From: Methanocella paludicola SANAE | GTDB taxonomy: Archaea > Halobacteriota > Methanocellia > Methanocellales > Methanocellaceae | Assembly: GCF_000011005.1 (NCBI RefSeq) | Contig: NC_013665.1 | Span: 2,457,501-2,521,500, forward strand | Length of the DNA: 64,000 nucleotides | Direction: 5' to 3' | In this document: one piece after another, positions 3,095-60,565 of the stretch | Layout: every line of letters begins with the position of its first letter | Numbering within the stretch: position 1 is the first letter of the stretch | The notes under the pieces: model-generated | Database searches by the model: none | Told to the model about the DNA's origin: nothing | Seen by the model: the letters and a program-made list of their open reading frames with translations, nothing else | Translations under genes and position numbers: made by a program

Positions 3095-3424
3095 TCAGGC
3101 CTGAGGTTTGTAGTCTTCCCGGGCGGGAGAAAAGACCTCGACGGCCACCGAGTCCTCAAGGATGGCAGCCCCGTGCTCGACGTTGCCGGGAATTGACCAG
3201 CTATCGCCGGGCTTCATGTCGTACGGCTCTCCGTCGATGGTAAGTATGATGTGGCCCGACACGAGATAGCCCGTCTGCTCCTGCGGGTGCTTATGCGCGG
3301 GCAGCGTCTTGCCCTTCTTGAGCCGGAACTCGGTCATCATCGTGTTCATGCCGTATACCAGCGTTTTGCGCCCGATACCGTCCATTGCCTGGATATAGCC
3401 ATCTCCGGAAGCCTTCTTTACCAT
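3095..3424 (-). CDS. cupin domain protein
   Basis: A 109-residue single-domain cupin. Cupin motif 1 is visible as LPAHKHPQEQTGYLVSG (HxH...E......G) and motif 2 as PGDSWSIPGNVEHGA (P-G-D-x-x-x-I-P-x-x-x-x-H), giving the usual three-His/one-Glu metal site on a small beta barrel. Such stand-alone cupins act as enzymes or ligand-binding proteins; the substrate cannot be told. A GTG at 3436 could add four residues, but the ATG at 3424 is preferred. It heads a probable two-gene unit with the Cys-rich protein. Confidence 0.85.
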   Translation of the reverse strand: MVKKASGDGYIQAMDGIGRKTLVYGMNTMMTEFRLKKGKTLPAHKHPQEQTGYLVSGHIILTIDGEPYDMKPGDSWSIPGNVEHGAAILEDSVAVEVFSPAREDYKPQA

Positions 3425-7551: not shown

Positions 7552-7595
7552 ACCAGCTAAGACGCTCGGGTTGCTAATAAGTGTTTTTCCCCGCA

Positions 7596-8022
7596 TTAAG
7601 CCCGCGAAGCTGGTTAAGTCCGCGAAGACTGTTCGAGCCCGAAGGCCGCGAAGCTGGCGCGAAGACCGCGAAGGTCATCTTATATTATGGCTGTGTTGGT
7701 TCGAAGCCGCTTAATCTGAGAGAAAGAGCTTCACGGGCATGGCTTACGATAAACCACTTTTACTATTTTTCATTGTTTATCCGTCGCCCGCGTCTCGATA
7801 GTTCTCAGGAATGTTATAAACCGGACTCCGTGGCCTCCGTGCCTCAAATTATAAAAAGTGCTTTGTGAGTCCTCCGTGCCCCCGTGGCCCTGTGTATTGG
7901 ACACTCCATGAAGGCATAGGTAAAAGGAGAATACGGCTCCTATCTTCAAGAGGCTTCGGGCGAACTTCGCGGTCTTCGCGCTCGAATAGTCTTCGCGGAC
8001 TTATGCCTCTTCGCGAGCTTAA
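7596..8022. repeat. palindromic repeat element A (GCGAAG family, partly decayed)
   Basis: Non-coding element of about 430 bases. Its left arm (7596-7673) and right arm (7953-8022) are inverted copies built from repeated GCGAAG units. The inner right arm (7877-7916) carries the CTCCGTG-type units and the segment CCTGTGTATTGGACACTCC shared exactly with element C, but its left partner is missing, so this copy is eroded. The middle holds a remnant of the GATAAAC / GTTTATCGTCG centre (7748-7789). It separates the divergent genes thiD and the small SH3-like protein. Open frames inside are by-products of the repeats. Confidence 0.85.
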
Positions 8023-8080
8023 ACGTGGGCGCATGGGCGCAAAAACATTAAAGAGGGATAACGGCGTCCTTATTAATTAC

Positions 8081-17106: not shown

Positions 17107-17157
17107 GCGGCCATCCTCTTTTTTATTTTAAGTTACTGTCATCTTGTCCATGCTACA

Positions 17158-17785
17158 AAGCTCGCGAAGCTGTTTAAGTCCGCGAAGACGTTTCGAGCCC
17201 TAAGACCGCGAAGCTTACGCGAAGACCGCGAAGACTTCTTAAAGAATTAATAATGGATATTTTGCCTTGTTCAATTTGTACATTAAATTATCTTTGGTGT
17301 TTCTCCAATTTTTGGATGAGCATCCTTTTGCTTTTCCTTATGCCGTCGTGGAGTGTCCAATACACAGGGTCACGAAGTCACGGAGTACGCACAGAGCGAG
17401 AGACAGAGATCATTGAGATACGGTTGACGAATAAACAACTTTTAGGTGAATGATGGTTTATCGTCGCCCGAGCCGTTCTAAACTCTGTCTCTCAGTTAAG
17501 TATAAACCCGTCTCCGTCCACTCGGTGTCTCGCATATTAAAGAGTCTTCGTGCGTTCTCCGTGGCCCCGTGGCCCTGTGTATTGGACACTCCACGACTGC
17601 ACAGCGGGAAAAGGATAGAAAACATTTTAACCAAACCACGATAGAGGCACAAAAACCAACAAAACCTCATCCAACAATCGGAGAAGAACCTTATCTTTTA
17701 AAGTATCTTCGCGGTCTTCGCGTAAGCTTCGCGGTCTTTGGGCTCGAATCAGTCTTCGCGGACTTATCAAGCTTAGCGGGCTTAA
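17158..17785. repeat. palindromic repeat element C (GCGAAG / CTCTGTG family)
   Basis: A non-coding element of about 630 bases with nested inverted arms. Outer arms at 17158-17235 and 17706-17785 are made of GCGAAG units. Inner arms at 17344-17385 and 17557-17598 are inverted copies, the last 25 bases perfectly complementary. Further in, GACGAATAAAC (about 17426) faces GTTTATCGTC (about 17457). It lies between the convergent aminopeptidase and XRE-type regulator genes. No reading frame in it has a plausible protein. Confidence 0.9.
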
Positions 17786-58158: not shown

Positions 58159-58225
58159 AACGTTTTAATATTATCTAACAAAGTATATATCATTATAGGG
58201 CTATAAGTTGGGGAGAGGATACTTA

Positions 58226-58495
58226 ATGATTGCTGATATCACCTCTTTATTCGACCTGAACGTCTATACGGACAAGGGAAAATACGTGGGGAAGGTGCAG
58301 GATGTCCAGCTTGAGGCGAACGAGAGGAAGATCTCAGGCCTCGCGCTGGGGAACATTAATAAGGACATGTTCGACGTTGAGACAAGGGGCGTCATTATCC
58401 CCTACAGGTGGGTGCTCGCGGCCGGCGATATCGTCATTATCAGGCAGCCGAACGTGAACCTGGGCGAGAAGAGCGAAGAAGCTGAGGAGATGTAA
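58226..58495 (+). CDS. PRC-barrel domain protein
   Basis: An 89-residue protein consisting of a single PRC-barrel: the strands SLFDLNVYTDKGKYVGKVQDVQLEANERKISGLALG and GVIIPYRWVLAAGDIVIIR are typical. Archaeal stand-alone PRC-barrels bind RNA-processing, cell-division (CdpB-like) or other partner proteins; which applies is not certain. ATG 58226 is chosen because the purine-rich GGGGAGAGGA sits at 58210-58219, about 6 bases upstream. The acidic tail SEEAEEM is short. Confidence 0.88.
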   Translation: MIADITSLFDLNVYTDKGKYVGKVQDVQLEANERKISGLALGNINKDMFDVETRGVIIPYRWVLAAGDIVIIRQPNVNLGEKSEEAEEM

Positions 58496-58568
58496 TCTCC
58501 TCGAGCTCATCCTTTTTTTGATATTTTGTAGTGTTGAATAGATCTTATACTTCATGCGCTTCCCTAGC

Positions 58569-59243
58569 TTAAGCCCGCGAAGCTTGTTAAGTCCGCGAAG
58601 ACTGTTTCGAGCCCGAAGACCGCGAAGCTGGCGCGAAGACCGCGAAGACATATTAAAAATTTGATTCTTGCGCGTTTTTGGGATGGCCTATATCCTATGC
58701 CGTCCCGGAGTGTCATAGCACACAGGGGCACCGAGCTCGCCGAGGTTAACGGAGATTTTTTAATGATTTGAGGCACGGAGCACACGGAGCACGGTTTATT
58801 AGTTTTCCCGGGGCACAGAGTTAATAGAGGCAGGGTTGACCAATAAACAATTAATAAGGTAGCTTTGAATAAACGGCGAGGAATGGTTTATCGTCGACTA
58901 TGCCTCTTTCAACTCTGTGCCCCGGGTAAGTTATAAACCCGTCCCTGTGGCCTCTGTGACCTCTCTTTTTAATAAAAATCTCCCTGAAACTCCCTGCTCT
59001 CCGTGCCCCTGTGTGCTATGACACTCCGGGACGGCATAGGGGTAAGGCGGGAGTTCGCATAAGTAAAACCATACGCCATGAAGACACAATAAGTAAATAA
59101 AGAAAAACGCTTACCCCAAAATCGCGGAAGAATCCATTTTAACATAAAATTATCTTTTAATCTATCTTCGCGGTCTTCGCGTAAGCTTCGCGGTCTTCGG
59201 GCTCGAAACAGTCTTCGCGTACTTAACAAGCTTCGCGGGCTTT
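58569..59243. repeat. palindromic repeat element D (GCGAAG / CTCTGTG family, best preserved)
   Basis: A non-coding element of about 675 bases that folds back on itself in nested arms. Outer arms: 58569-58649 and 59165-59243, GCGAAG units, about 80 bases each. Second arms: 58696-58736 and 58996-59038, with 36 bases perfectly complementary. Third arms: 58807-58822 and 58911-58926, 16 bases perfectly complementary (CCCGGGGCACAGAGTT). Centre: GTTGACCAATAAAC at 58834-58847 faces GTTTATCGTCGAC at 58886-58898. It lies between the convergent PRC-barrel and MFS genes. Frames inside are artefacts. Confidence 0.93.
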
Positions 59244-59270
59244 AGCTGCACAAGCGAGCGGATTGAATAA

Positions 59271-60494
59271 TTATTTTAGCACATACGAGCCGTTCTTATT
59301 ATGCGGGACTAGCTTTCTTAAATAAATAAAGCTGAGGGCACAGCCTAAGCCCGCCGTCCCGACGATGAGCCAAACGTACATACCCGGCAGGTGGTCAAGG
59401 AGAACTCCGCCCAGCAGCGGCCCGACGGCAAAGCCCAGGGTGCTCGTAAGCCCGCTGAAGCCCTGGTAGCGCCCCCGGTTCTCCTCGGTGGACAGGTTGG
59501 CCGTCAGCGTGGTCTGCGGGGGCATGTACGTTAATTCGCCCAGCGTAACGATAAAGATGCACAGGGCCAGCATGAGGAAGTTGTGCGAGAACGCGACCAA
59601 CCCGAAGCCCAGCGCGTAGAGCGTCACGCCCAGGGCCATCGAGAGCGTGAGCCTGTAGCGGTCCGTGAGCCTGGTGACGAAGTACTGCGCCACCACGACC
59701 ATGATACCGTTAATGGCGAAAAGCATGCCTATCTCGACCTCGGGGATCCCCACGAATCCCTTGGAGTAAACGGACAGGGGCGAGTACATCTGGGAGTAGA
59801 CGACCGAGACGAGGAACACCAGGATCGAGAAGACCATAAAGGGCCGGTCGTCCGGGATCCTGCGCAGGTCCTTTAATGTGAACCGCCTGGCGGGGATGCA
59901 CGTCCTCGTGTCGCTGATGAAAAAGATGACCAGGAGCAGGTAAATAGTGCTGGTGACGGCCGTGAAGTAGAACATGGACGAGTAGGAGAGCATGGCCATG
60001 ACCCCGCCTACCATGGGGCCGAGGGCGAATCCTGCGTTCTGCCCGATACGTAATAAACTGAAGGCTTCTAGCCGCTTTTGGGGAGGCACAAGATCGGTGG
60101 CGATAATGTTCGGTATGGGGCGGAAGAGCCCGGTGGCCACGCGGGTCATGCATAATATGAGCAGGTAAAGCCCATAATGAGCCTTAGCGCCAACGGCCCA
60201 CCCCAGCAGCAGGAAGCTCGTTATCAGGATGGACAGGCCCAGGATGAACGTGAACCGCCTCCCCATACGGTCGCACATCTCGCCCCCAACGAACTGGAAG
60301 ATGGCCCCGACGAACGAGGAGGCGAACATGGCGAACCCCACGAGGCCGGCCGATACGCCCTGGTAATAGTACAGGTATATCGAGATGAAAGGCATCACGA
60401 TGGACATGCCGAACTGGTTGAGGGCCATGCCGAAGAACAGTATCCATAGCCTGCGGTCATATGCCGGAAGCTTGAGGTTCTGTATCATGGACAT
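59271..60494 (-). CDS. MFS transporter
   Basis: A 407-residue membrane protein with 12 hydrophobic helices. The MFS motif A is seen after helix 2 (GGEMCDRMGRRFTFILG, about 70-86) and again in a weaker form after helix 8 (TRLTDRYRLTLSMALG). The conserved end of motif 5-like helices PMVGGVMAML and GFAVGPLLGGVLL suggests a drug/H+ antiporter type. The substrate is unknown. GTG 60503 could extend it by three residues. It lies next to repeat element D. Confidence 0.92.
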   Translation of the reverse strand: MSMIQNLKLPAYDRRLWILFFGMALNQFGMSIVMPFISIYLYYYQGVSAGLVGFAMFASSFVGAIFQFVGGEMCDRMGRRFTFILGLSILITSFLLLGWAVGAKAHYGLYLLILCMTRVATGLFRPIPNIIATDLVPPQKRLEAFSLLRIGQNAGFALGPMVGGVMAMLSYSSMFYFTAVTSTIYLLLVIFFISDTRTCIPARRFTLKDLRRIPDDRPFMVFSILVFLVSVVYSQMYSPLSVYSKGFVGIPEVEIGMLFAINGIMVVVAQYFVTRLTDRYRLTLSMALGVTLYALGFGLVAFSHNFLMLALCIFIVTLGELTYMPPQTTLTANLSTEENRGRYQGFSGLTSTLGFAVGPLLGGVLLDHLPGMYVWLIVGTAGLGCALSFIYLRKLVPHNKNGSYVLK

Positions 60495-60565
60495 GGCTAT
60501 CACGACGGATGAAAAATGGTAATATACGATACCGGTAGATAAATGTAATGTAGCTGTGGTGACGT

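Follow-up and report, generated by a model that had tools for sequence, protein, structure and literature searches.

A nested palindrome of Methanocella paludicola is very probably a pair of small mobile elements related to GxxExxY nuclease elements

REP/REPIN-RAYT systems (REPtrons; PMC3116915, PMC3733652, PMC8266576) consist of palindromic intergenic repeats at gene ends, with many gene-less copies and with a nuclease-type gene located between inverted copies of the same repeats. The palindrome of Methanocella paludicola SANAE described here and its relatives share these traits but differ in several respects. Their protein is a PD-(D/E)XK protein of the GxxExxY type (PF13366/TIGR04256) and not a Y1/HUH TnpA_REP, the arms measure 80–100 bp and the elements 300–790 bp as opposed to 20–40 bp for REPs, and the arms are built of tandem units of 7–10 bases whose motif recurs in many phyla. 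ISL3-family MITEs, i.e. non-autonomous ISL3 derivatives, resemble the inner part of the palindrome in their 24-bp ends, 8-bp AT-rich duplications, length of about 420 bp, many copies and lack of a gene. Here, however, the cargo is a long short-unit fold-back which is common to GxxExxY elements, and the host genome is devoid of an ISL3 transposase. The transposed non-coding satellites of Methanocella conradii (PMC6749651) are likewise dispersed repeats and come from the same genus, but they are tandem with a 37-base repeat, whereas the M. paludicola elements are fold-backs with inserted elements. Finally, the open reading frame present in the loop of some relatives is a clear member of the GxxExxY protein family (NCBIfam TIGR04256, Pfam PF13366 PDDEXK_3). 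One of the three open-access papers found to name GxxExxY or PF13366 mentions it in passing, and judged by title and abstract none of them deals with mobility or repeats; no relevant open-access paper with the unit sequences was found. A description of the link between GxxExxY and hairpins was not found in the open-access literature, subscription papers and preprints lying outside this search.

The palindrome occupies positions 58557-59256 of the window, the 64,000-base stretch 2457501-2521500 of the 2,957,635-base genome. Two flanking genes converge on it, a PRC-barrel gene (58208-58495, plus strand) and an MFS transporter gene (59271-60503, minus strand). As single-stranded DNA it folds with -243.8 kcal/mol, compared with a mean of -94.0 (sd 3.6) for shuffled sequences (z = -41.7), and smaller inverted repeats were also detected mechanically within it. 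The sequence-only reading had described an intergenic nested palindrome with arms made of the units GCGAAG, CTCCGTGcCC and CACAGAG. Nesting, location and units were all borne out, while the arm lengths had been given too short; at either end the palindrome extends some 12 bases beyond the limit stated there (Table 1). We consider it highly probable that the palindrome consists of two small mobile elements, one nested in the other, and that its two fold-backs are gene-less relatives of GxxExxY elements. This reading draws on the anatomy, the copy number, the target duplications, the nesting with empty sites, the gene seen in the loop of related elements of this genome and the recurrence of that arrangement in other phyla. 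In the proposed course of events the outer layer would be a GCGAAG fold-back element, into whose AT-rich loop an ISL3-type MITE would have jumped. The type of the transposase is suggested by the MITE ends and by the duplications at sister copies; the enzyme, no longer encoded in the genome, would have worked in trans. The cargo of the MITE would be a second fold-back, the CACAGAG core, and both fold-backs may be regarded as relatives, without the gene, of elements whose loop encodes a GxxExxY PD-(D/E)XK nuclease.

Table 1. Positions of the palindrome's parts, of further composites in the window and of two features located elsewhere (window coordinates unless stated otherwise)
Feature	Position	Strand	Basis or remark
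Outer GCGAAG hairpin element, left arm	58557..58658	+	102 nt inverted repeat, 90% complementary to 59155-59256
Outer GCGAAG hairpin element, right arm	59155..59256	-	pairs with 58557-58658
Predicted inner ISL3-type MITE, left terminal inverted repeat (GATTCTTGCGCGTTTTTGGGATGG)	58663..58686	+	TIR pattern scan
Predicted inner ISL3-type MITE, right terminal inverted repeat (GATTCTTCCGCGATTTTGGGGTAA on minus strand)	59111..59134	-	TIR pattern scan
CACAGAG hairpin core, left arm (TATGCCGTC..., then CACAGGGGCACCGAG units)	58694..58760	+	67 nt inverted repeat, 87%
CACAGAG hairpin core, right arm	58974..59040	-	pairs with 58694-58760
Inner arm adjoining the loop (GGGGCACAGAG unit)	58791..58849	+	59 nt inverted repeat, 75%
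Inner arm adjoining the loop, right partner	58884..58942	-	pairs with 58791-58849
Loop of the core; position of the GxxExxY gene in gene-bearing relatives	58850..58883	.	comparison with 538917, 858981, 1469537
AT-rich remainder of the outer loop on the right side of the MITE (ATTTTAACATAAAATTATCTTTTAATCTATC)	59135..59170	.	near-identical in empty element 2019530
Second composite: GCGAAG hairpin with predicted ISL3-type MITE (17296-17690) inserted at TTATCTTT	17157..17785	.	exact 8-bp duplication
Third composite: GCGAAG hairpin with truncated core inside	7589..8023	.	sequence match
Apparent DDE_Tnp_1 in MITE core	L044 4377-5540 (genome ~1215.4-1217.2 kb); L043 2770-3918 (genome ~1168.2-1170.0 kb)
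Dense repeat of Sorangium	G049 610.4-614.5 kb, 8415.6-8416.6 kb, 9167.5-9170.7 kb

Aligned intact copies of the inner element extend to 24-base ends, GA(C/T)TCTTCCGCGGTTTTGGGATGA and GGTTCTTGTGCGTTTTTGGGATGA. The pattern of these terminal inverted repeats (TIRs) matched 60 times in the genome (0 times in the reversed control), mostly in inward-facing pairs about 422 bp apart, and the element of about 420 bp thus delimited contains no gene. Exact 8-bp target duplications with 95% A+T flank 22 of 32 inward pairs, a number that rises to 29 if up to two mismatches are allowed; with swapped flanks the frequency of exact 8-bp matches was 0.5%, and other duplication lengths gave 0–4. Five ISL3 (PF01610) elements of M. 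arvoryzae possess GG(C/T)TCTTCTCC... ends, which lie within three mismatches of the generalised TIR pattern, together with 8-bp AT-rich duplications. Because of the matching ends and duplications, the inner part of the palindrome (58663-59134) is classified as a predicted ISL3-type MITE. A search for the ISL3 transposase (PF01610) was positive in M. arvoryzae and negative in the M. paludicola genome. This rules out a transposase encoded in the element's own genome and leaves the relative as the guide to the donor; an ISL3 enzyme would have moved the MITE. The window copy itself (genome 2516163-2516634) has no recognisable target duplication, as six of eight positions mismatch, presumably because the composite is old and the duplication has been lost. 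A different ISL3-type MITE family of about 340 bp with duplications AAAAAGGA, ATATTTAA and ATAAATAA is found in a relative (genome G003; L084, L087, L090, L092, L111); it carries a fold-back of CGCGACG units and thus has the same design with another unit. Two copies of the M. paludicola MITE core appear in turn to contain an insertion sequence of the DDE_Tnp_1 type (PF01609), about 1.5 kb long.

Copies were counted in the genome stretches around them, so that the numbers are lower bounds: we found some 50 relatives of the core, the inner part of about 350 bases, and about 25 elements with outer GCGAAG arms. Such an arm in the stand-alone element 2148162 matches the left outer arm of the window copy by 89% over 90 bases. 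Thirteen of the 25 GCGAAG elements hold the core in their loop, at differing sites and in both orientations (most orientations, nestings and empty sites were judged by eye from the sequence). Element 644413 carries an insertion at TGAATAAT, a site unoccupied in 1671043, which in turn is occupied at TAATTAAT, a site free of insertion in 644413. Likewise, the TTATCTTT site contains an insertion in 2474657 but none in 1008170 or 2019530. These reciprocal empty sites point to independent insertions into one kind of loop and led us to reject the idea that the window element was born whole as a composite. The window copy is thus best described as a putative transposon inside a transposon, and nesting of two repeat families accounts for the layered palindrome. 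One whole composite is present twice (1662454-1663143 and 1706145-1706823; 692 bp, 94.7% identity) and has moved or been copied as a whole. Recognisable ends plus an 8-bp duplication were seen in only 3 of 23 copies of the GCGAAG family (null, 5 of 300). Another GCGAAG element (genome 1092912-1093929) encloses in its loop about 850 bases of a third fold-back, built of CACGAAG/ACACGAA-like units, and a young MITE sits in the loop of each of two strongly diverged GCGAAG-like elements with GCTCGAAGACTG units (genome 2817370-2818010 and 2885370-2886010).

The genome contains six GxxExxY genes, and every one resides in a hairpin loop, two in GCGAAG elements, three in CACAGAG cores and one in a diverged relative. 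The loop frame scores 137.8 bits against TIGR04256 (GxxExxY; cut-off 35) and matches PF13366 (PDDEXK_3) with E = 1.4e-38. The two GCGAAG elements (491123-491765 and 1947971-1948614) are 98.6% alike, have unrelated flanks and carry an identical 129-codon gene. The three gene-bearing core copies (538917, 858981, 1469537) have in common about 790 bases that end sharply at GTTATGCC and GGCATAAC. Inspection by eye places 858981 in what appears to be a decayed ISL3-type frame, which 538917 and 1469537 lack. A sharp-ended unit shared by three copies, with such a frame in one of them, suggests that hairpin and gene together form a unit of their own. The gene-bearing copies are thus sharp-ended common segments in unrelated flanks; no clear target duplication was recognised at them. 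Between the GxxExxY paralogs of the three core copies dN/dS amounts to 0.14-0.24. In an alignment of 27 GxxExxY proteins residues G32, G34, E37, Y40, D77, E87 and K89 are invariant, as would be expected of an active PD-(D/E)XK enzyme. No solved structure of a GxxExxY relative was found, and an AlphaFold model built from two sequences was useless (pLDDT 37). The window core matches the arms around GxxExxY genes by 82% over 136 bases (E = 2e-31), which identifies it as a likely gene-less relative. By sequence, both fold-backs of the palindrome thus appear to be gene-less relatives of GxxExxY nuclease elements. The wide association of GxxExxY with such arms leads us to infer that loss of the gene, rather than its acquisition, produced the gene-less forms.

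That association extends far beyond Methanocella. Significant flanking inverted repeats, mostly of the short-unit type, were detected at 26 of 30 GxxExxY genes from 12 bacterial phyla, a sample of best-scoring loci several of which come from related genomes, and at 18 of 29 GxxExxY genes of Halobacteriota, which were not selected for repeats, compared with 13 of 400 control frames. At E <= 1e-5 the numbers were 16 of 30, 9 of 29 and 0 of 400, respectively; no significant arms were present at 4 of the 30 and 11 of the 29 genes. Among the positive loci are members of Abditibacteriota, Cyanobacteria, Nitrospirota, Spirochaetota, Pseudomonadota, Verrucomicrobiota, Hydrogenedentes, Bacteroidota, Chloroflexota, Planctomycetota, Myxococcota and Acidobacteriota. 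A generalised form of the arm motif, AACCACAGAGRCACAGAG, occurs in at least 117 stretches from many phyla, with about 15 estimated by chance for the whole collection. An inverted partner lies within 400 bases at 108 of 146 occurrences and a direct copy at 7. The motif starts at most 80 bases from the stop codon of a long open frame in 73 of 140 cases, compared with 120 of 1392 random places. GxxExxY is present in 31 of 40 genomes with the arm motif, a figure biased by the choice of genomes for the CACAGAG motif; the flank test is less so. The statement in the sequence-only reading that loosely similar repeats exist in other genomes was correct, CACAGAG being found in many and GCGAAG-type arms at two loci (L307, L308). 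In Sorangium, arms like those around the GxxExxY gene are also found as gene-less hairpins; comparison between species revealed syntenic flanks with other DNA in the element's place and no clean empty site. Short-peptide scans of 2.9 million viral contigs yielded one confirmed GxxExxY contig.

Given this association, the sharp ends and the selection on the gene, we infer that the nuclease may move hairpins and help the gene-bearing unit to spread. It is conceivable, though we hold it as a tentative proposal at somewhat less than even odds, that GxxExxY genes form the autonomous part of a class of fold-backs that move without a transposase and occur in at least a dozen bacterial phyla and in archaea. 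The nuclease, encoded between arms of tandem short units (CACAGAG, CGCAAAG, CGCGAAG, CGCAGAT and others), would disperse the hairpin, and the hairpins behind stop codons would be its gene-less offspring, as REPINs are of RAYTs. Alternatively, GxxExxY may be a passenger: hairpins and gene would be moved by DDE transposases (ISL3 and the owner of the TGCTGTGTTGAATTAG ends), and the cargo would have another job, for example in defence. We regard this as a real possibility, if a rather doubtful one. Most copies in this genome do have DDE-style ends and 8-bp duplications, and 858981 with its apparent ISL3-type frame fits such a role, but 538917 and 1469537 share the hairpin unit only. Moreover, in other phyla the arms begin at AACC beside stop codons with no further terminal repeat noticed, and GxxExxY is tied to the arms across many phyla. 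In any case a multi-copy orphan nuclease family gains a genomic setting, as its genes are flanked by hairpin arms in distant phyla. Should the nuclease indeed spread the hairpins, a class of short-unit repeats in many genomes would be explained, and mobility without a classical transposase would become testable.

Insertion occurs at AT-rich spots directly behind gene ends. With tens of relatives the element is not rare, and none of 47 MITE-core copies lies within a predicted gene. Convergent gene pairs flank 27 of them, tandem pairs 19 and a divergent pair one (background in the same stretches, 105/302/89), and the median distance to the nearest gene 3' end is 24 bp. For the GCGAAG family, 4 of 22 copies were scored as inside a gene, but this figure is unreliable, as the element ends were set only approximately. 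The strong preference for 3' ends and convergent pairs, together with the arms close behind stop codons in other phyla, would be in line with elements that are maintained at convergent gene ends because they terminate transcription in both directions or stabilise RNA 3' ends, selection on the RNA fold explaining their form. We nevertheless consider such a role unlikely: the target duplications document arrival by insertion, gene ends themselves frequently offer AT-rich 8-bp targets, and a simple scan revealed no terminator-like site in the element, although the consensus used is perhaps unsuitable for archaea. In addition, no Rfam covariance model matches near any gathering score, and single copies lose pairs without compensation.

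The latter point bears on the fold in general. Over 143 consensus pairs, 20 young copies display 99 one-sided changes as opposed to 1 compensatory change; of the double changes in three older copies 16 are complementary and 9 non-complementary, alongside 81 one-sided changes. Co-ordinated differences in complementarity are seen only from one subfamily to another, which is what maintenance along the lineage of active copies would produce. Subfamilies that keep complementarity while single copies decay form the pattern of a mobile lineage, and the fold belongs to the mobile unit and is not a locally maintained RNA or cruciform. The sequence-only reading had taken the conserved order of drifting layers as a sign of selection on the fold. 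The pair counts in young copies speak against selection in place, and the order stems from the nesting of two repeat families. A caution follows, as layered palindromes with drifting sequence can arise by nested insertion without fold selection. Of the three guesses that the sequence-only reading made at the nature of the element, the non-autonomous mobile element proved right, in view of copies, target duplications and nesting with empty sites. A structured RNA is rejected, since Rfam offers no match and the pair counts indicate decay rather than compensation. A DNA cruciform with a part in replication or in organising the chromosome is most improbable: self-complementarity is very strong, and by plain count copies look fewer near the end of the chromosome with the reported origin (PMC3146512), but the position is not conserved, young copies lack compensatory change, and the core was not found in three other sampled family members at the sensitivity of blastn. 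With the nested-insertion reading, an odd archaeal palindrome becomes readable as a pile of mobile elements.

Some further observations concern the GxxExxY gene itself. Many short matches to only its first approximately 35 residues occur in G224, G244, G313 and other Halobacteriota genomes, and they look as if derivatives with internal deletions had multiplied. At two loci (L293, L296) GxxExxY is part of a single frame of about 398 codons which, by eye, includes an upstream methyltransferase-like sequence (start MRINKLYGIGVGPGDPELLTVKAYKVLKEVD); this is possibly a fusion caused by insertion near a gene end. In Sorangium a GxxExxY locus (L277 ~3106-3167) is situated near a repeat that forms dense regular copies elsewhere in the genus (Table 1), probably a CRISPR array. 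At three loci (L195 2566-3075, L277 1492-1917, L266 1495-1908) the arm reads as the N-terminus of GxxExxY (MNHGDTEAQR, MMNHRGTEGTEED and MVFHHKDTKGTK, respectively), so that the repeat doubles as coding sequence.
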